Shown here: positions 613-16,709 of the stretch, one piece after another
Layout of the letters: each line of letters starts with the position of its first letter
Position numbering within the stretch: position 1 is the stretch's first letter
IMG/VR virus record: IMGVR_UViG_3300042887_001418
Coordinates: 1-23,578 of that record
Origin: a virus
Reading direction: 5' to 3' (one strand)
Length of the DNA stretch: 23,578 bases
The notes under the pieces: model-generated
The model's input: the letters and a program-made list of their open reading frames with translations, nothing else
The model's database searches: none
What the model was told of the DNA's origin: nothing
Position numbers and translations under genes: made by a program

Positions 613-666
613 ATGAACACGCAAATCCCCCTCGTATCCCCCCTCGTAAAGATCGCGAGGGCCTGA
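613..666 (+). CDS. 17-codon micro-ORF leading into the methyltransferase
   Basis: ATG at 613 opens a 17-codon frame (MNTQIPLVSPLVKIARA) ending in a TGA at 664-666 that overlaps the methyltransferase ATG (TGATG). An AGGA lies at 607-610, close upstream of the start. It fills exactly the space between the preceding gene and the methyltransferase, and a GAGGG inside its tail serves as ribosome site for the methyltransferase. It could be a leader peptide coupling translation, or simply untranslated spacer with a chance frame. There is no homology evidence for a functional peptide. Confidence 0.3.
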   Translation: MNTQIPLVSPLVKIARA

Positions 667-2084
667 TGCGGTACGGCTCAGTCTGTTCCGGCATCGAAGC
701 GGCCACGGTCGCATGGCATCCGCTCGGCTGGCGGCCGGCCTTCTATTCCGAGATCGACAAATTCCCGCGGGCGGTCCTCGCGCACCACTATCCCGATGTG
801 CCGTTGCATGGGGACTTCACCACCATTCGCGAGGGCGAATATGAACCAATTGACATTCTTGTCGGCGGAACCCCCTGCCAGAGCTTTTCGATCGCAGGAT
901 TGCGGGGCGGCTTGGGCGACGCGCGTGGCAACCTGGCCCTCGCGTTTCTTCAACTTGCTCGCCGCTCACGCGCCCGATGGGTGGTTTGGGAGAACGTCCC
1001 CGGTGTACTGTCATCGAACGGAGGACGGGACTTTGGTTCCATCCTCGGGGGCTTGGCAGAACTCGGGTATGGGTTCGCCTATCGAGTGCTTGACGCTCAG
1101 TACTTCGGAGTGGCCCAGCGCCGCCGCCGTGTGTTCGTTGTCGGACACCTTGGAGACTGGCAACGTGCCGCAGCGGTTCTTTTTGAGCGCGAAAGCCTGC
1201 GCGGGGATTCTGCGCCGCGCCGCCAAGCGGGGCCGGGAGTTGCCGCGCTCACTGCAAACGACGTTGGAACATGCGGCGCAGACGATAACCAAGCCCAAGC
1301 CGGTCATCTAATCGCTAGGGCTTTAAACGCCAAGGGCGGCGTCGGTCGCATTGACGGTGAAAGTGAGACGTTCGTTACCCACTCCCTGCGCGCTGATGGC
1401 TTTGACGCGAGTGAAAATGGGACGGGACGGGGAACGCCGCTTGTGCCTGTCACGATTGGCGTTGACTGCTATAACGGAATCATAACTGGCGAGGTTGCAG
1501 CGACAATCGGGACGGCTGGGTCAGGTGTAAACGGGGCCAGTCCTATGGCAATGCAGATCCGCCAGGTCGCAGTGTCGAACAGCCTCGGCGCCAACTCTGG
1601 CGCCAACTCTGGCGGCAACCAAGTCGAGCAAACCTACGTCGCGTGGTCGATCATGCCGCAGAACTCGAGCCGTGATTACAAGGCACGCGCCGTGGACGTA
1701 GCGCAGCCTGTCATGGCGGGTGGCCCTGTCGGGGGCAACCAACAAGGGGGCGACTGCATTCAGCAAGCCGTGGCCTTTGCTCAAAACCAGACAGGCGAGG
1801 TGCGCGCGGGGGACGTGTTTAACACTTTGAACACGAACAGCAACGCAAGCGGGCGCAATACGCCCATGCCTTCCACATCAGCCGCCGTGCGCCGCCTTAC
1901 ACCGCGGGAGTGCGAAAGATTACAGGGATTTCCTGACGATTATACTTTGATTCCTTACCGCAACGGCATGGCCGCTGATGGCCCTCGCTACAAGGCGCTG
2001 GGGAACTCAATGGCCGTGCCCGTGATGGCCTGGATTGGCCGGCGCATCACAATGGTGGATCAGATCGAAAGGCCCGCAGCATGA
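666..2084 (+). CDS. C5-cytosine DNA methyltransferase (Dcm-like)
   Basis: The enzyme would transfer a methyl group from S-adenosylmethionine to carbon 5 of cytosine at a specific DNA site. The ordered C5-methyltransferase motifs are all present in 472 residues. Motif I is SVCSGIEAA (about 5-13), motif IV is GGTPCQSFS with the catalytic Cys71, motif VI is ENV (109-111), and motif VIII is QRRRRV (151-156). Motif IX (RRLTPRECERLQGFPDDYT) follows the recognition region, and motif X is GNSMAVPV near 446. The target-recognition region between VIII and IX is long, Gly/Asn-rich and carries a short tandem repeat (GANSGANSGG). No endonuclease partner is visible, so it is probably an orphan phage methyltransferase for evading host restriction. 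The ATG is chosen for the GAGGG upstream and because the family starts right before motif I. Confidence 0.95.
   Translation: MRYGSVCSGIEAATVAWHPLGWRPAFYSEIDKFPRAVLAHHYPDVPLHGDFTTIREGEYEPIDILVGGTPCQSFSIAGLRGGLGDARGNLALAFLQLARRSRARWVVWENVPGVLSSNGGRDFGSILGGLAELGYGFAYRVLDAQYFGVAQRRRRVFVVGHLGDWQRAAAVLFERESLRGDSAPRRQAGPGVAALTANDVGTCGADDNQAQAGHLIARALNAKGGVGRIDGESETFVTHSLRADGFDASENGTGRGTPLVPVTIGVDCYNGIITGEVAATIGTAGSGVNGASPMAMQIRQVAVSNSLGANSGANSGGNQVEQTYVAWSIMPQNSSRDYKARAVDVAQPVMAGGPVGGNQQGGDCIQQAVAFAQNQTGEVRAGDVFNTLNTNSNASGRNTPMPSTSAAVRRLTPRECERLQGFPDDYTLIPYRNGMAADGPRYKALGNSMAVPVMAWIGRRITMVDQIERPAA
841..1311 (+). CDS. Possible overlapping gene inside the methyltransferase (alternate frame)
   Basis: A 156-codon frame starting MNQLTFLSAEPPARAF lies wholly inside the methyltransferase gene in another frame of the same strand. 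Its ATG at 841 has a good ribosome site (GCGAGGGCGAAT directly upstream). It includes patterns such as GWFGRTSPVYC, GTLVPSSGAWQNSGMGSP, CSLSDTLETGNVPQRFF and ACAGILRRAAKRGRELP. I recall similar sequences annotated as stand-alone hypothetical proteins in many phage genomes, some next to or inside cytosine methyltransferase genes; this is memory, not a search. The alternative is that apparent conservation is carried along by methyltransferase motifs IV-VIII, which the frame overlaps. The C-terminal helix (GILRRAAKRGRELP) is basic and could bind nucleic acid. Product function unknown. Confidence 0.4.
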   Translation: MNQLTFLSAEPPARAFRSQDCGAAWATRVATWPSRFFNLLAAHAPDGWFGRTSPVYCHRTEDGTLVPSSGAWQNSGMGSPIECLTLSTSEWPSAAAVCSLSDTLETGNVPQRFFLSAKACAGILRRAAKRGRELPRSLQTTLEHAAQTITKPKPVI

Positions 2085-2388: not shown

Positions 2389-2913
2389 TCACTCGCACGA
2401 CCAGACTTCTGTCTGCGTCACCAAGTCTTTTGGTGCGCCTGTATCGACAGTAAACGACTTGTCCTCAAACAGCGTGCGGTTCGTCGGCTGGATCGTAAGA
2501 CGACCGTTGTCTAGCTCGATGAAGCTGAACTCTTTCTGCTGCTCTGGTGCGCGGGTGAAGCCGTCATCAGTAAACGCGGCGGTGAATAGATATGTGCCGC
2601 TGTGGTCTTTTGTTTTGGCCGTCATCTCGCGCAGATATGTGTACTCATGCAGTTGGAACTTGTCGGCGTAGCAGTCCCACAATTGAGCATCAGTGACGGC
2701 CCACATTTGTTCAGGCTCATCGCAAAACGCAATCGCATGAGGCGGGAGGCTGCGATAGATAGCTCCGCACTCCAGCATTACATTCAGGCCCCAGGCCCTG
2801 CCGTACTGGCTGACGAGGCCAAACCATACTGCCGGCTCAAAGCCTGAGCCGCCGGCGCGGATGAAGTGGCTATCGACCCAGACGTATTTGTGGATGGGGA
2901 GTGAGGAGATCAT
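2389..2913 (-). CDS. Conserved-looking hypothetical phage protein, 174 aa
   Basis: This is the last and largest gene of the leftward cluster. GGAGGAG lies directly upstream of its ATG, inside the end of the preceding gene, and the two genes abut with no gap. The N-terminal half is rich in aromatic residues and Gly (HKYVWVDSHFIRAGGSGFEP, AVWFGLVSQYGRAWGLNVML, GAIYRSLPPHAIAF). The C-terminal half looks like beta strands (GTYLFTAAFTDDGF, GRLTIQPTNRTLF). I have the impression of having seen similar N-terminal halves in other phages, without a function. No catalytic motif, signal peptide or membrane helix is seen. Its end is immediately convergent with the membrane-protein gene. Confidence 0.65.
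   Translation of the reverse strand: MISSLPIHKYVWVDSHFIRAGGSGFEPAVWFGLVSQYGRAWGLNVMLECGAIYRSLPPHAIAFCDEPEQMWAVTDAQLWDCYADKFQLHEYTYLREMTAKTKDHSGTYLFTAAFTDDGFTRAPEQQKEFSFIELDNGRLTIQPTNRTLFEDKSFTVDTGAPKDLVTQTEVWSCE
2402..2435. other. Two tandem stem-loops at the convergence point
   Basis: Just inside the 3' end of the leftward 174-aa gene are two adjacent hairpins: CAGAC-TTCT-GTCTG (2402-2415) and CACCAA-GTCTT-TTGGTG (2419-2435). They lie where rightward and leftward transcription meet and could slow or end transcription in either direction. There is no clear U-tract, and they overlap coding sequence, so this may be chance. Confidence 0.25.
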
Positions 2914-3915: not shown

Positions 3916-4172
3916 GAGGTGGCCTGGAGGGCAATGAGTTTTGCTTTTCGCACTTGGCTGCGGGTCATGTTGGCGGCGTGGATACGAGACATGACGTCGC
4001 GGTCATATCCGACAAAAAACCAGCCGGTCTTGATGCTATTTGGCATCCTGCCGTGCGCGTGGACGCTGCCGTCTTTGCTTATTTTAACGCGCTCGACGCT
4101 GTAGTCGCAGCGCACCGCGCTACGGATAGCCAGCTGGATATGGCGAGCGCGATAGTTTTTGATGATGATCAT
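3912..4172 (-). CDS. Hypothetical phage protein, 86 aa
   Basis: AGGAG at 4178-4182 precedes the ATG at 4172. The protein begins with a basic strand (MIIIKNYRARHIQLAIRSAV), and its central part has a polar beta pattern (VKISKDGSVHAHGRMPNS followed by KTGWFFVGYDRDV). It ends in a basic helix (SRIHAANMTRSQVRKAKLIA). The GRMPN-x4-GWFFVGY segment reminds me of short conserved phage proteins of unknown function. No catalytic or metal-binding residues stand out. It is the second gene of the leftward unit and is coupled to the zinc-ribbon gene by an ATGA overlap. Confidence 0.55.
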   Translation of the reverse strand: MIIIKNYRARHIQLAIRSAVRCDYSVERVKISKDGSVHAHGRMPNSIKTGWFFVGYDRDVMSRIHAANMTRSQVRKAKLIALQATS

Positions 4173-4201
4173 GGTGGCTCCTGATTTGTGGGGTTTGAGG
4201 G

Positions 4202-4459
4202 TTAGGAGGCTTCGTCGGTCTTCTCGAACGTCACTTCGATCCAGCGCGTGCCTCCGAAATTGTTGTTTACGGCGTCTTGGACGGATTTAATCGACTGTTG
4301 GTCGATATCGTGGACGTTGAGGTGGAACGCCTCGGCGTAGTCGTGCGCGTCAAACGTGTCGGTGTCGGGACTGGCGAACCAAGTCCAGCAACTGAGGTCG
4401 ACGGCAATGGCGGGGACGGAGCGGTAGGAAAGGGTGATCAGGTTTGTCGGGCGGTTCAT
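4202..4459 (-). CDS. First gene of the leftward unit, hypothetical, 85 aa
   Basis: AGGA lies eight bases before the ATG at 4459, and a good promoter lies about 40 bases further upstream. The product is a small acidic protein with a strand-rich start (NLITLSYRSVPAIAVDLSCWTWF), a His/Asp-rich middle (DTDTFDAHDYAEAFHLNVHD) and a short strand near the end (TRWIEVTFEKTD). No signal peptide, membrane helix or known motif is seen. As the promoter-proximal gene it would be made earliest and most in this unit. Function unknown. Confidence 0.55.
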   Translation of the reverse strand: MNRPTNLITLSYRSVPAIAVDLSCWTWFASPDTDTFDAHDYAEAFHLNVHDIDQQSIKSVQDAVNNNFGGTRWIEVTFEKTDEAS

Positions 4460-4500
4460 GGTTTTTGTCCTGTTTGATTTGTTTGCGGGTTAGTGAGAGG

Positions 4501-4529
4501 AAATTATTTGAGCGGCTTGCGCCTGTCAA
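4501..4529 (-). promoter_or_regulatory. Leftward sigma70-type promoter
   Basis: On the minus strand a perfect -35 hexamer TTGACA (4529-4524) is followed by either TAATTT at 17 bases or AATAAT at 15 bases (around 4508-4501). It faces the 85-aa gene starting at 4459, leaving room for a transcript start near 4495 and a leader of roughly 35 bases with the AGGA ribosome site. This is the clearest promoter in the window, judged by eye. Confidence 0.55.
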
Positions 4530-4670
4530 TACGGATAATGCGGGGTGGTTTTGTGTTGAGATAACAAGAGTTGTAATGTTCGAAAATGGTGCAAGTTAGG
4601 CCCGTTTTTGTTGGTCCGTTTGAAAACGTTGAGGCACGTTGAGGCACGTTGAGGCAAACGTTGAGGCTGT

Positions 4671-4697
4671 ACTTAGGCCCAGTATTGCTGGGTAAGT
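4671..4697. other. Dyad within the control region
   Basis: ACTTA-GG-CCCAG-TATTG-CTGGG-TAAGT forms a 10-bp dyad with a two-base GG bulge and a five-base loop, immediately after the fourth direct GTTGAGGC copy. It could be an operator, a cruciform site at an origin, or an RNA hairpin in a leader transcript. Confidence 0.4.
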
Positions 4698-4879
4698 GTG
4701 TGATTTGGGGGGTAGTTCGTACTCGCTCGCTTCAAAGGCTTGCCTCAACGTTATTAACCTTTGCTTCAACGGTTGAGGCTGGGGGAGGGTGTTTTGTGCT
4801 TTGAATGTTCAATGTTTGCTGAGGTTTTTGTGTGGGCGCTTCAATCGTTGAGGCAGCGTTTTTTTGGTGCCCATGCAAT

Positions 4880-4917
4880 GAGGCTTTCTTCCCCCCCCCT
4901 GTAAGGGGGGAAGCCTC
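4880..4917. other. GC-rich hairpin with C-run and G-run arms carrying repeat copies
   Basis: CTTCCCCCC (4888-4896) pairs perfectly with GGGGGGAAG (4905-4913) around an eight-base loop. Outer arms GAGG (4880-4883) and CCTC (4914-4917) extend the stem past a four-base bulge. The outer arms are parts of GTTGAGGC-type repeats, so the array ends in a stable hairpin. Without a following U-tract it is not a normal terminator. Confidence 0.5.
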
Positions 4918-5176
4918 AACGGGTGATGCGGGGGGTGAGAGAGGGGTCAATGAATTTCTCATTCGTTGTATGGAAAACACCGCCTTCACCGGCTTTACCG
5001 CATTCCGCGGGTTCGACTGCGGGAACTGTCAATGCGGCGGCGGTTATGCCGCCTTGCCGTCGTGCCGCAGTGACAGAGGCAAGGAGTAGGGGAAGGACGC
5101 CCCGCGAGAACTAAGATCCCCGCGTTGTTGCGAGGTCGTTGTAAACACTAGCAGCTTGCGTCTTTCAAGGTGGTTG

Positions 5177-5596
5177 ATGTGGCTCGAGGATGGAGTTAAT
5201 TTTTCAGGCATGGAAAAAACGCAAGCGAGGCTAGAGAAACCCGAGGCGATGAAACGCCTCTCCAAGCCGGTTTTAAAGAGCGGCAGACCCGCGGGCTTGC
5301 TCAACTTGATACCTCGCCCCATTGCCAAAGAGATTGCCCGTGCGGCGGCTGAATGCCGTCCAGGAGGGTTCGGAGAGTTCCTGATAGAGATGTCTCGCAG
5401 TGAAGTAGCCAGCGACCGCGCTACCTTCGCCGGCTGCGTCCTGCGCCTTCTTCCGCCCGTACAGACCCAGGCCGGCGGGCCGGCGGTGACGATCAACCTG
5501 GGCTGGCTGACCGGTCGAGCCGTCGCCGGCAGCGCTCACACCGTCACGATCGATCAGCCGGCGCCCGAGGCCGAGGCCCACAATGCAGACGTGTAA
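5177..5596 (+). CDS. Putative terminase small subunit
   Basis: The small terminase recognises phage DNA and hands it to the large terminase. The assignment is an inference. A basic start is followed by SGRPAGLLNLIP, like the GRPKG-x-N opening of many small terminases, then helices (RPIAKEIARAAAECRPGGFG, FLIEMSRSEVASDRATFAGC) leading to VLRLLPPV. The C-terminal part looks like strands (PAVTINLGWLTG, HTVTIDQP) before an acidic tail. It is the first gene of the rightward late module and lies about 1 kb before the large terminase. The ATG at 5177 is chosen for AAGGTGG just upstream; ATG at 5210 (MEKTQARL) is a credible alternative. Other DNA-binding roles remain possible. Confidence 0.45.
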   Translation: MWLEDGVNFSGMEKTQARLEKPEAMKRLSKPVLKSGRPAGLLNLIPRPIAKEIARAAAECRPGGFGEFLIEMSRSEVASDRATFAGCVLRLLPPVQTQAGGPAVTINLGWLTGRAVAGSAHTVTIDQPAPEAEAHNADV

Positions 5597-12138: not shown

Positions 12139-13110
12139 ATGGCTTTTCCGAACACTACGGACATCGTAGCAACGACAATTCAAAATCGTAGTCGCGCTAT
12201 TGCGGACAACGTGACCAAGAACAACGCCCTGCTTGCCAAGCTCAACATGCGCGGCAACGTCAAGACGATCGGTGGCGGTAACGTCATCCTGCAGGAACTG
12301 AGCTACGCGCAGAACAGCAACGGCGCGTTCTACAGCGGTTATGATCTGCTGCCCGTTGCGGCGGCTGATGTCATTAGCGCGGCTGAGTTCAACATTAAGC
12401 AGCTCGCCTGCCCGGTTGTGATTTCCGGCCTCGAAATGCTGCAGAACAGCGGCAAAGAAGCCTTCATCGACTTGCTTGAAGGCCGCATCAACGTAGCCGA
12501 AAGCACGATGTCGAACCTCTTGGCGCAGTCGATCTACAGCGACGGCACCGGCAGCGGCGGCAAAGAAGTCACCGGCCTCAACGCCGCTGTGCCTTCTGAT
12601 CCTACGACTGGCACCTACGGCGGCATCAACCGCGCTACTTGGGCGTTCTGGCGTTCGCAGCTGTATGACTTCAGCACAGCGTCGGTGACTCCGTCTGCGA
12701 CGACGATCCAGGCCGCGATGAACTCGATGTGGGCCAGCCAGGTCCGCGGCTCTGACCGCCCTGACCTGATCGTCTCGGACAGCATCTTCTGGACTTACTA
12801 TATGACCTCGCTGCAGGCCATTCAGCGGTTTACGTCTCCAGAAACTGGTTCGCTCGGTTTCCCGACGATTAAATTTATGGATGCAGACGTTGTTCTGGAC
12901 GGCGGCATCGGCGGCTACATCGGCTCTTCGCTGATGTTCTCGCTGAACACCAAGTACATCTTCCTGCGCCCGCACAAGGACAGGAACATGGTCGCCCTTA
13001 GCCCGAACAAGCGTTACTCGGTCAACCAGGACGCAGAGGTACAGATCCTTGGCTGGGCCGGCAACCTCACGAGTTCTGGCGCGCAGTTCCAGGGTCGCAT
13101 TCAAGCCTAG
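12139..13110 (+). CDS. Major capsid protein
   Basis: A 323-residue protein following the scaffold gene, with a GGAG ribosome site eight bases upstream. The sequence (MAFPNTTDIVATTIQNRSRA, GNVILQELSYAQNSN, FYSGYDLLPVAAADVISAAE, then KQLACPVVISGLEMLQNSG) matches my memory of a widespread family of phage coat proteins of HK97-like fold. The end (YSVNQDAEVQILGWAGNLTS) is the usual closing beta strand region. The gene is flanked by its own structured leader and a strong terminator, consistent with very high, separately controlled expression. A longer out-of-frame reading that crosses its start is judged spurious. Confidence 0.88.
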   Translation: MAFPNTTDIVATTIQNRSRAIADNVTKNNALLAKLNMRGNVKTIGGGNVILQELSYAQNSNGAFYSGYDLLPVAAADVISAAEFNIKQLACPVVISGLEMLQNSGKEAFIDLLEGRINVAESTMSNLLAQSIYSDGTGSGGKEVTGLNAAVPSDPTTGTYGGINRATWAFWRSQLYDFSTASVTPSATTIQAAMNSMWASQVRGSDRPDLIVSDSIFWTYYMTSLQAIQRFTSPETGSLGFPTIKFMDADVVLDGGIGGYIGSSLMFSLNTKYIFLRPHKDRNMVALSPNKRYSVNQDAEVQILGWAGNLTSSGAQFQGRIQA

Positions 13111-13763: not shown

Positions 13764-14351
13764 ATGAACACCGCCACAGCACCGACAGATTGGAATAATG
13801 TTGCAGACGCAGTAGACGACAACTCCAACAGGTTCCAGAACGACGACAAGCTGCATGTACAGTTCAGCCGTCGCCCAAAGATTCAGCCGGCTGAGTCAGA
13901 CCTGGCTGGTCGCGCCATTTATAAAGAGATCGACTACATCACGATCATTGTCCCAGGCGACAAGGCAAGCATCGTCGAGCGTCCCGTTCAGTCTTATGAC
14001 GTCACGCGCTTCGCGGCAAAATATGCCAACTGGCAAGCAAACGCCGGTGTAGTGCAGGAAGGCACGCCGATCTCCTCGCTGCCGAAGATGACGCCCAGCA
14101 AAATTGAGGAATACAAGTTTTTCTCTATTCACACTGTTGAGCAGCTTGCAGCGGCGTCAGATAGCGTGGGTCAAAAGTTCTTTGGCTTCCAAGATGACAA
14201 ACGCTCTGCCAACGCTTTCTTGGAGATTGCCAAGGGCAACGCTCCCTTTGAGCGCATGAACAACGAGCTTAAAGAACGCGATGCCAAGATTGAGGAAATG
14301 CAGTCTCAGATCGAGGCGCTAAATAAAATGATGACTAAAGCCAAAAACTAA
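13764..14351 (+). CDS. Conserved head-module protein with C-terminal coiled coil, 195 aa
   Basis: The ATG at 13764 follows AGGG and an A-rich spacer. After a polar start the protein has LAGRAIYKEIDYITIIVPGD, then VTRFAAKYANWQANAG, EGTPISSLPKMTPSKIEEY and FSIHTVEQLAAASD. This order (PGD strand, EGTP-L-S-LP, TVEQLA helix) is one I recall in many phages just after the coat protein, always without a named role. The last 30 residues form a short heptad helix (NNELKERDAKIEEMQSQIEA). The low-complexity start may be disordered. A structural or assembly function is likely from position. Confidence 0.6.
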   Translation: MNTATAPTDWNNVADAVDDNSNRFQNDDKLHVQFSRRPKIQPAESDLAGRAIYKEIDYITIIVPGDKASIVERPVQSYDVTRFAAKYANWQANAGVVQEGTPISSLPKMTPSKIEEYKFFSIHTVEQLAAASDSVGQKFFGFQDDKRSANAFLEIAKGNAPFERMNNELKERDAKIEEMQSQIEALNKMMTKAKN

Positions 14352-14367
14352 TTAAGGGCTGGGTTAG

Positions 14368-15117
14368 ATGGCTTTCCAAATTATTCAAGACGCAAGTCTT
14401 TTAGCCATCGTTCAAAACGTGGCTCAGATGGTGAGCTATCCTACGCCATCCGACCCAGCCGGCGATTCAGATCCGTCTGTTCAGCAGATGGTGCAAGCCG
14501 TCAATATGTCGGCCACCGAACTTCTTGGTCTGTACGATTGGCAAGAACTTACGCGAACTTATAATATTTCTATCGCTGCAGACACTCCCGGACAGACAGA
14601 ACAAGCGTTTGATCTGCCCGAGGATTTCTACGAGTGGTTAGATCAGACGCAGTGGAACAGCACTAACCAGTGGCCGGCGATCGGGCCTATCAGCCCGCAG
14701 ATGTGGCAGAACTTGTTAGTCAACGACGTCTTGCCGACAATGTCGTTCTACTGGCAAGTCCGCGACAATTCTCTGTATATCCTGGCGCCGCCAACTGAAG
14801 CGCAGACGCTGACGTTTATGTATCAGTCCCTCGCCTGGGTACAGGATCAGGACAACCCAACGCTCTACAAAAACCGCGCCACCAAGAATGGCGACATCAT
14901 TCTTCTTGATGCCTTTTTAGTCACACTTTTCACGCGGGCAAAGTGGCTAGAGATGAAGGGATTAGACTCTTCTGCGGCAATGCGTGATTTCCATGTGAAC
15001 TTTGAAAACCGCAAAGGCCAAGAAAAGGGCGCACCCGTTTTGAACATGGTGCGTACATACGGGTTCCCTTACCTCAACGCGCTCTACAACACGCCTGACA
15101 CTGGCTTCGGTTCCTAA
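14368..15117 (+). CDS. Head-tail adaptor (gp4/gp11-like)
   Basis: A 249-residue protein between the head genes and the gp10-like protein, where podoviruses encode the adaptor ring that attaches to the portal. The front is helical (LLAIVQNVAQMVSYP, VNMSATELLGLYDWQELTRT) and the DW motif after a helical bundle is typical of adaptors. The middle has FDLPEDFYEWLDQTQWNS and a strand region (FYWQVRDNSLYILAPP), and the end is helical again. Its stop overlaps the next ATG by one base (TAATG). Assignment is by context and pattern; it could also be described simply as a neck protein. Confidence 0.55.
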   Translation: MAFQIIQDASLLAIVQNVAQMVSYPTPSDPAGDSDPSVQQMVQAVNMSATELLGLYDWQELTRTYNISIAADTPGQTEQAFDLPEDFYEWLDQTQWNSTNQWPAIGPISPQMWQNLLVNDVLPTMSFYWQVRDNSLYILAPPTEAQTLTFMYQSLAWVQDQDNPTLYKNRATKNGDIILLDAFLVTLFTRAKWLEMKGLDSSAAMRDFHVNFENRKGQEKGAPVLNMVRTYGFPYLNALYNTPDTGFGS

Positions 15118-16709
15118 TGCCGTTAGTCGCAGTCAAACCATTTAAAAGCCCTCGAGTATCTGCGGCAACGCAAGTCTCAATGATGACGAGTGTTCCGTCA
15201 CCTGTGGGCGGTTTGAATTTCCGCGACCCGATCAGCGAGATGCCCGCGACCGACGCGATGGTGCTTAACAACTTCATCCCACAGCGCACAGGCTGTTTGT
15301 TGCGAAAGGGATGGCAGTATAGCTGCAATGTCCTTGATGATCCGGTCACATCGTTGTTTAGCTATAACGCTGCTGACAGCGCGGATAACAAGTTGTTCGC
15401 GGCATCAGGCGGCAGCATCTGGGATGTTACTGGCGAAGATGCGGTTGAAGACCAAGCCGCAACAGGATCAACAGATGGCATCTGGAGCACGACACAGTTT
15501 GCGCTCGTCAGCGGCGAAGTTGTCTTGCTCGCGGTATCTCCCGGCGCCGGCTATTGGGTGTACGAGGCAACCACCGGCTGGACACAAACCACGCCCACAA
15601 ATTTACCAACTGACTTGTCGTCTATAGCAGTTTGGAAAAATCGCGTTTGGTTTACGGAAGACAAGACTTCAACGGTCTATTACCTCGAAGACGTTGATGC
15701 AATCGACGGCGTTGCTGTAGCATTTGAGATGGGTTCGTTGTTGCGCAACGGCGGCTCTGTCCGCGGGCTTATCAACTGGACGCTCGACAGCGGATTTGGC
15801 GTTGATGATTACCTTGTAGTTGTCGGCACCGAGGGCGATGTCGGCGTCTGGCAAGGCACCGATCCAACGTCTGCTGCTACGTTTGGGTTGAAGGGTGTCT
15901 GGTATGTCGGACCCGTCCCATCAATAGGCCGTTTTTTTACCGCATACGGCGGCGATGTGATGATCTTGTCAGAGCTTGGCTTGGTGCCAATGTCTCGCTT
16001 GGTCAACGGTCAGTTCAGCGAAATACAGCCTGGGCCGTCTTCTAAAATTCAAAGCGTGTTGTCTCCACTGATTGTTCAATATCGCAACGACCCGTCGTGG
16101 GACGTTATCCTTGTTCCGAACTCAGATGTCTTGATTATTAAAGTTCCGCCGCAAAACGGCATCTATGTGCAGTACGCAATGAACGTGAACACTGGGTCGT
16201 GGTGTTCGTTCACCAACATGCCTATGGTCTGCACCGCGCTGCTCAATGGACAATTATATTTTGCCACCGACGACTACGGCATCGCCAAGGGGCTTTACGG
16301 AGAACAAGACGGACTAACAATAGCCAATACCAGCGGCGATTATGTGAGCGGCGATGTCCAGGGAGCTTTTAACTCGTATCAAATGCCTGGGCGCTTGAAG
16401 AAATTTACAATGGTGCGTCCTGTTTTTATTACGACGAAGGCACCTGGCGTAAAACTGCGTATGAACACGCAGTACAGTTTCACTGGTGTTCCTGGCACGC
16501 CATCTTTTAGCGCAGATACGACCTCAGAATGGGATACCGGAGTTTGGGGGACTGCCAAATGGTCTGGAGCCTCTAACACTTACGAAAATTGGTTTGGCGT
16601 TACCGGCCTTGGTTATTTTGGTGCTGTGCGCTTGCGTGTGAAGGGCGTTGGTGGATCAACAACGCTGTCCTCCTATCACGTACTTTATGAACCGGGAGGA
16701 ATTATGTAA
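15117..16709 (+). CDS. P22 gp10-like packaged-DNA stabilisation / tail nozzle protein
   Basis: In 530 residues the protein shows the pattern of beta-propeller tail-hub proteins: a short start, then SPVGGLNFRDPISEMPATDA, NNFIPQRTGCLLRKGW, and repeated blades with aromatic-rich strands (LFAASGGSIWDVTG, VVLLAVSPGAGYWVYEATTG, AVWKNRVWFTEDKTSTVYYL). The opening P-x-GG-N-x-RDP-x-x-MP-x-x-DA is one I associate with gp10-type plugs. Located after the adaptor, it would close the portal channel after packaging and support the tail. The stop overlaps the start of the proline-rich gene (TAATG). No truncation is seen. Confidence 0.7.
   Translation: MPLVAVKPFKSPRVSAATQVSMMTSVPSPVGGLNFRDPISEMPATDAMVLNNFIPQRTGCLLRKGWQYSCNVLDDPVTSLFSYNAADSADNKLFAASGGSIWDVTGEDAVEDQAATGSTDGIWSTTQFALVSGEVVLLAVSPGAGYWVYEATTGWTQTTPTNLPTDLSSIAVWKNRVWFTEDKTSTVYYLEDVDAIDGVAVAFEMGSLLRNGGSVRGLINWTLDSGFGVDDYLVVVGTEGDVGVWQGTDPTSAATFGLKGVWYVGPVPSIGRFFTAYGGDVMILSELGLVPMSRLVNGQFSEIQPGPSSKIQSVLSPLIVQYRNDPSWDVILVPNSDVLIIKVPPQNGIYVQYAMNVNTGSWCSFTNMPMVCTALLNGQLYFATDDYGIAKGLYGEQDGLTIANTSGDYVSGDVQGAFNSYQMPGRLKKFTMVRPVFITTKAPGVKLRMNTQYSFTGVPGTPSFSADTTSEWDTGVWGTAKWSGASNTYENWFGVTGLGYFGAVRLRVKGVGGSTTLSSYHVLYEPGGIM

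Follow-up and report, generated by a model that had tools for sequence, protein, structure and literature searches.

A short-repeat array in a freshwater phage contig is probably a replication origin read by the phage's own primase-helicase

Background

According to PMC7581432, which cites Ubeda 2007, the C-terminal domain of the helicase in SaPI Rep and SCCmec Cch2 recognises short iterons that lie directly downstream of its own gene, and the PICIs of E. coli and Gram-negative bacteria carry iterons that differ from element to element, grouped as two sets that flank an AT-rich region (PMC6092414). The SaPI/PICI Rep helicases belong to families other than the one described below, namely the DUF927 or Primase_Cterm/D5 type (PMC7581432). 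As outlined in PMC4234260, RSF1010 replicates with RepC, RepA, RepB', iterons and the ssiA/ssiB stem-loops. The same source describes the P4 alpha protein, which unites a primase of the Toprim type, a helicase and a winged helix that binds the origin repeats, as well as pRN1 ORF904 and the phage BIP-1/BPP-1 protein, where the origin is a stem-loop immediately past the 3' end of the gene encoding a primase-helicase-winged-helix protein.

The locus analysed here lies in a stretch of 23,578 bases (the window), which is an entire virus record on one contig and belongs to a freshwater bacterial virus. It contains an array of short repeats that is probably the phage's replication origin, its iterons being bound by the winged helix of the phage's own primase-helicase. 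By analogy, the array would work like the SaPI Rep, P4 alpha and pRN1 systems, and would differ from them in the type of helicase and primase, in belonging to tailed phages, in its fast-changing words and, for the window lineage, in its distance from the gene.

The reading of adjacent iterons by a helicase C-terminal domain is what it would share with SaPI/PICI (SaPIbov1, SaPI5, the E. coli PICIs) and SCCmec Cch2, but here the helicase has the RecA fold of RSF1010 RepA, the genomes are those of tailed phages, a GC palindrome stands at the array end, and in the window lineage the array is about 5-6 kb from the gene. The RepA-like helicase and RepB'-like primase folds are both found, and iterons and stem-loops are likewise common to RSF1010 and the phages. 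RSF1010, however, has three separate proteins, including a separate RepC initiator with iterons of about 20 bp, whereas the phages join primase, helicase and the predicted DNA-reading winged helix in one polypeptide and have repeats of 7-10 bp; the likeness established covers the helicase and primase folds. P4 alpha has the same three-part, single-protein design with a winged helix for origin repeats, but the N-terminal fold is RepB'-like here, an AEP Prim-Pol in the related genome G011 (G and L numbers are our labels for related records), and no Toprim match was obtained in the proteins scanned. The pRN1 system, as described, has an SF3 helicase and no iterons, whereas in the phages the iterons are the dominant element and the palindrome is short. 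The open-access literature (PMC, no subscription journals) yielded no description of this origin type, and neither an origin nor iterons are mentioned in papers on two of these phages or phage groups.

A dense repeat array at one locus

The word GTTGAGGC occurs 11 times in the window, 8 times at 4628-4920 and 3 times elsewhere, against a whole-window expectation of 0.86; in 100 shuffles the count always stayed below 11. At 4763 there is a ninth copy, GTTGAAGC, that departs from the word at one base. The relaxed word TTGARGC (TTGA(A/G)GC) has 11 sites inside the array (4628-4920) and 6 in the remaining ~23 kb, and its peak density of 11 per 300 bp compares with a shuffle maximum of 3 (300 shuffles). 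The dense packing of about nine to ten copies that the original prediction had reported is thereby borne out, with eight exact copies and one single-mismatch copy, as is its description of three copies in exact tandem at a 10-base period with others inverted or in dyads. The iterons at 4628, 4638 and 4648 keep the exact period, and the fourth, at 4660, follows 12 bases beyond. The features of the array are as follows.

4628..4635, + strand: iteron 1, GTTGAGGC, the leading copy of the tandem set with 10-bp period (motif count)
4638..4645, + strand: iteron 2, GTTGAGGC (motif count)
4648..4655, + strand: iteron 3, GTTGAGGC (motif count)
4660..4667, + strand: iteron 4, GTTGAGGC (motif count)
4729..4735, - strand: iteron-like TTGAAGC (TTGARGC search)
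4742..4749, - strand: inverted iteron GTTGAGGC (motif count)
4763..4779, no strand: 17-bp dyad GCTTCAACGGTTGAGGC, an inverted iteron at 4763-4770 (one mismatch) with a direct iteron at 4772-4779
4838..4854, no strand: 17-bp dyad GCTTCAATCGTTGAGGC, with a direct iteron at 4847-4854, 75 bases past the preceding dyad
4879..4918, no strand: hairpin/palindrome TGAGGCTT...CTTCCCCCCCCCTGTAAGGGGGGAAG...CCTC (folding against shuffles)
4913..4920, - strand: last iteron GTTGAGGC, inverted, shared with the 3' arm of the hairpin

The two 17-bp dyads (GCTTCAA-N3-TTGAGGC) are inverted iteron pairs, and a degenerate third at 4913-4929 continues their 75-base step. The hairpin at 4879-4918, which had escaped the original prediction, folds with z = -3.7 relative to shuffles; its outer stem is an inverted iteron pair and its inner stem a perfect 9-bp pairing of a C-run with a G-run. 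As is general for iteron origins, short direct repeats, with a unit of 7-10 bp, are confined to a single locus. No gene was identified in the array interval, which overlaps only with mechanical ORFs; Rfam gave no significant match for window positions 4400-5250, and the window contains no DnaA box (TTATNCACA).

Genetic setting of the array

The right part of the window encodes the terminase large subunit, the portal, the major head protein and further structural proteins, and the structural proteins are related to their counterparts in Myxococcus phages Mx8/Mx9. A host scan of the genome collection returned two MAG fragments only. Two features flank the array.

5210..5596, + strand: TerS-like (terminase-small-subunit-like) gene, starting 290 bases right of the array, named from its position upstream of terL and from resemblance, without an HMM match
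4501..4529, - strand: sigma70-like promoter of the leftward unit, TTGACA-17-TAATTT, TTGACAGGCGCAAGCCGCTCAAATAATTT (pattern search)

The promoter is kept in L010, L012, L013 and L017, and a stricter promoter scan did not list it. Its position bears on the suggestion that the array is a multi-site operator for a repressor or Cro-like regulator, governing an early/late or lytic/lysogenic choice, a suggestion to which the nearness of this promoter and the resemblance of the 17-bp dyads to helix-turn-helix operators lend themselves. Since the promoter lies about 100 bp outside the array, however, the iterons do not overlap it, and the promoter overlap that marks CI/Cro operators is missing. In many phages, moreover, the genes on either side of the array point the same way, and the array lies at the helicase 3' end and partly within coding sequence. 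A second promoter-like element (TTGAAAGACGCAAGC...) was seen right of the array, at about 5130-5170 (- strand) of the window, and a related GCGCAAGC element lies inside the arrays of L012, L013 and L074.

The array in close and distant relatives

Searching with terL yielded 65 viral loci, among which those with a terL at least 91% identical were taken as close relatives. The array is present in every close relative whose contig reaches the region (L010, L012-L015, L017, L019-L021, L065 and L070), and L074, found by DNA pattern, also carries it. Loss of the array in close relatives, which would have spoken against the original prediction, was thus not seen, nor is the motif equally common elsewhere: 11 of 22 TTGARGC sites fall in the array in G005 and 10 of 20 in G002, these genome-wide counts being made in relatives because the window is itself a whole contig. 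Within each genome the spelling drifts jointly (GTTGAGGC, GTTGAAGC, CAATGAAGC, or GTTGAGGC with GCTTCAG) around a constant core, TGARGC, and the spacing of the two dyads is 75 bases in L012 versus 65 in L013, a difference of about one helical turn. The array had been placed between divergent gene sets. The interval is indeed one in which no gene was identified, but L012, L013 and L017 have a further leftward gene right of the array, and the space between divergent units is therefore not its defining context.

Distant relatives have their array in the corresponding position, upstream of terS/terL, written in other, lineage-specific words: GTCGCAA in L027, GCGTTGCA in L026, GGGACAA in L023 and L269, GTGGACG in L038, GGGGACA in L062, TGTCCGG in L058, GTGCATC in L056 and ACCGCA in L060, with CGGGACA and CCGGACA in further lineages at the equivalent position. 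In G011 and G014 the array is at the 3' end of the large replication gene. Cumulative GC skew has its minimum at 12,168 in the near-complete relative G007, where the array is at 12,570; the minima of other relatives are not near the array. Repeats unlike iteron arrays were also seen, namely a dense short tandem repeat, ATGCGGC x16, at about 4050-4350 of L013/L014, and GCCGTAGC x18 at about 2300-2600 of L047, which seems to encode an AVAVAG-type repeat protein.

The replication protein

The product of the replication gene has about 650 residues, in which a primase resembling RSF1010 RepB' and a helicase resembling RSF1010 RepA are followed by a winged helix at the C-terminus. In G011 it shows Prim-Pol, PriCT_2 and AAA_25 domains and matches RSF1010 RepA by sequence (PDB 1g8y, E 7.7e-9); a weak Pfam RepB_primase match was obtained in G009. 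The helicase is of the AAA_25/RSF1010 RepA-like type, and not of the DUF927 or D5/Primase_Cterm type. For the 644-residue version of G005, a close relative of the window, an AlphaFold2 model has a mean pLDDT of 80 and a pTM of 0.47, a value that leaves the relative placement of the domains uncertain. Its N-terminal part matches the fold of the RSF1010 RepB' primase (3h20, E 2.8e-7) and its middle that of RSF1010 RepA (1olo, E 2.2e-6); it ends in a winged-helix topology with a long helix at residues 613-629. The label "winged helix" rests on this predicted topology, since a search of the C-terminal domain alone against the PDB gave no significant match (best E 0.04, the top-ranked entries being mostly winged-helix proteins).

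In G005 about 5.6 kb separate the end of the replication gene from the array to its right. A search for helicase sequence in the window was negative, and the window begins with bases that align to G005 a short way past the stop codon of its helicase gene; we infer that the window phage's own replication gene lies just off the left contig end, about 5-6 kb from the array. Between that off-contig gene and the array, a DNA-methyltransferase-like gene (PHROG 116/363) occupies positions 666-2084 (+ strand) of the window.

Association of the array with the helicase gene

Three more scans brought in over 150 helicase loci. In 65 lineages (90% identity) we scored an array wherever a 7-mer was repeated at least 5 times in 200 bp, in the interval running from roughly -120 to +500 bp relative to the helicase stop. 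Such an array was found in 23 of the 65 lineages versus 24 of 856 control tiles; the window lineage is unlike these 23 in that its iterons are not directly downstream of the helicase gene but about 5-6 kb away. For the phages that lack this terminase family, which have other genes on the right and packaging genes starting after another 1-3 kb, the counts are 15 of 34 and 6 of 325 control tiles. In some array-negative lineages the array is displaced from the helicase 3' end, and no array was found by the 7-mer criterion in the G009, G012 and G013 types or in Caulobacter GB2A. Long ATGCTAGGGTCTTTGGC-type repeats about 100-600 bp 3' of the helicase gene in L211, L213 and L225 look coding (DARVFG...) and are not iterons; the 7-mer criterion therefore also picks up coding repeats.

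In cultured phages the array follows directly after the helicase gene in Alteromonas PB15 (TGAACCA), Idiomarinaceae 1N2-2 (CGGTACA), Salicola CGphi29 (ATGTCCC), Rhizobium RHph_Y3_1 (GTTCCCA) and RHph_N65 (GCGGAGA). The same layout, with the word TGGGACA, is present in the metagenomic complete genome ct3Oc712, and it is weakly seen in Vibrio 1.076.O. Arrays often finish with inverted iterons around a C-rich/G-rich palindrome, for example CCCTATAGGG or GGGGTACGTAGTACCCC, and perfect stems of 8 bp or more were present in 34 of 48 array regions versus 34 of 559 random regions.

Proteins of the adjacent unit with AT-hook or zinc features had been proposed as binders. This proposal finds no support: the array tracks the primase-helicase gene ~5-6 kb away, and it occurs in phages whose neighbouring genes differ from these small AT-hook/zinc-like proteins. 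An attachment site composed of a core and arm-type integrase sites was considered as well. Regions of attP can hold arrays of direct and inverted sites, and 5 of 21 related records encode a tyrosine integrase. In G014, however, the integrase is several kb from the array, no integrase match was obtained in the searched records of the window's clade (all incomplete contigs), and integrases that do not adjoin the array leave its link to the helicase unexplained. We rejected this candidate on the 5 of 21 records and the distance in G014, and regard an attachment site as exceedingly improbable. The integrases, together with XRE/Cro-like gene pairs, indicate that part of the family is probably temperate. 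Divergent pairs of an XRE-repressor-like and a Cro-like gene lie upstream of the helicase gene at 4012-4948 in G011, 14104-14963 in G014 and 9089-9992 in L291.

Covariation of repeat word and predicted recognition helix

The relation between word and protein was analysed in 42 array-bearing lineages, which we chose, as we did the array bounds, from automatic matches, and for which a motif-distance matrix was built. A 12-column sliding scan over the last 330 residues of the 42 helicases, with overall relatedness removed, peaked at AAAQRQAWRRTM with r = 0.40, where the largest of 1000 permutation maxima was 0.342, label permutation leaving some shared ancestry in these statistics; the rest of the scan was near zero. 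The peak corresponds to G005 residues 613-624, at the start of the helix 613-629 of the modelled winged helix, the helix expected to act in recognition. In partial Mantel tests the helix, given the helicase domain, correlated with the word (r 0.36, p 0.0005), and the rest of the C-terminal domain was not significant. The peak stayed at this predicted helix in every leave-one-clade-out run (p 0.002-0.006).

Phylogeny can inflate covariation tests on related sequences, and when each motif class is represented by a single lineage (n = 26) the peak, at the same helix, has p = 0.08. The array might then be an origin whose iterons are read by another protein, such as a separate small DNA-binding protein, the covariation reflecting shared ancestry. 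Yet the peak is restricted to a single short stretch where the predicted recognition helix begins, and survives the removal of each clade, and the array adjoins the helicase gene in otherwise unrelated phages; we consider a different reader unlikely. On this covariation, the C-terminal domain of the helicase may decide which iteron is read.

Close pairs point the same way. L279 and L280 are 99% identical in TerS, 98% in terL (where the sequences overlap) and 94% in the helicase, and their words differ (TGAAGC versus TGAGCGT); three of the changes in the C-terminal domain (N/E, T/S, T/A) fall at residues 601-606 of that protein, at the helix or immediately ahead of it. The same position distinguishes L228 (TCGCAC) from L207/L220 (TCACAC), with STRSRR versus VTSGKR / FTSGKR. 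Counter-examples are L117, L127 and L153, which have nearly one helix and slightly different words (TGTCCG, TGTCGG and TTGTCC).

These comparisons also bear on the reading of the array as a packaging start (cosB or pac) bound by TerS. Phages commonly have TerS-binding repeats beside or within terS, and in the window and its terL-related relatives the array does lie upstream of a TerS-like gene. TerS is nevertheless nearly invariant between L279 and L280 despite their different words, while the window and G002 share one word with TerS proteins only 42% identical, the divergence lying mostly in the N-terminal half. Where the terminases are unrelated, furthermore, the array is still found beside the helicase gene, with the start of the packaging genes 1-3 kb beyond. 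We rejected a TerS-bound site mainly on the L279/L280 comparison of sequences, and a packaging start appears distinctly unlikely.

A P22-Cro-like helix-turn-helix gene precedes the helicase gene, and in the same subset of 22 lineages the Cro-like helix correlates with the word only slightly less than the helicase helix does (r 0.27 versus r 0.295), which favours the operator reading. The Cro-like recognition helix PSAVSRW is, however, identical in L101, L027, L269 and L251, whose words are unrelated, and because the helix is constant between unrelated words the Cro-like protein is disfavoured as reader. Nor is the array word concentrated at the CI/Cro-like divergent pairs of G011, G014 and L291. 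An operator is therefore very unlikely. The original prediction had offered an origin with iterons or an operator for the early/late switch; the association with the helicase gene and the covariation with the helix favour the former, and the latter finds no such backing.

A putative origin and its initiator

Taking the array as a replication origin read by the primase-helicase, we propose that the iterons would be bound by the winged helix at the C-terminus of the phage's single-polypeptide replication protein, that several copies of the protein would load on the direct and inverted iterons, and that the loaded helicase would then open the DNA. The palindrome at 4879-4918 may serve as a melting or primer-start site, by analogy with the RSF1010 ssi stem-loops and the pRN1 stem-loop. 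Loading on iterons through the winged helix is, given the covariation, the most likely of these steps, and the association with the gene suggests origin function; a priming or melting role of the palindrome is put forward from the analogy. In the window lineage the origin would be separated from its gene by about 5-6 kb, which hold small leftward genes and the methyltransferase gene.

More tentatively, and with somewhat less than even confidence, the arrays may represent a widespread, apparently undescribed class of tailed-phage origin, in which the three functions of RSF1010 are fused, one helix reads a short word, and word and helix diversify together quickly. Such co-diversification, even at 99% identical TerS, could on this tentative reading make co-infecting close relatives independent replicons. 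If it is true, a helix-to-word code could be derived from natural sequence variation alone. Many environmental and cultured tailed phages would gain a candidate origin with a named initiator, their starts being unannotated in the records examined, and phage primase-helicases would be linked to the broad-host-range replicon RSF1010. An initiator-origin pair that changes specificity between very close relatives would provide a natural data set on the evolution of DNA recognition, and the iteron array with its palindrome an easy signature for locating origins in metagenomic phages.

Neighbouring genes

In the leftward unit of the window, positions 2389-2913 (- strand) encode a 174-residue protein matching PHROG 3704 (annotated "ferredoxin"; E 1.9e-22), and PHROG 3704-like proteins, similar by look, recur in G007, G012 and G013. 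Directly after the helicase gene, and convergent with it, L279 (11923-12474) and L280 (2742-3305, - strand) encode a protein that looks GcrA-like by eye; a similar GcrA-like protein is found in G008 at 15935-16411.
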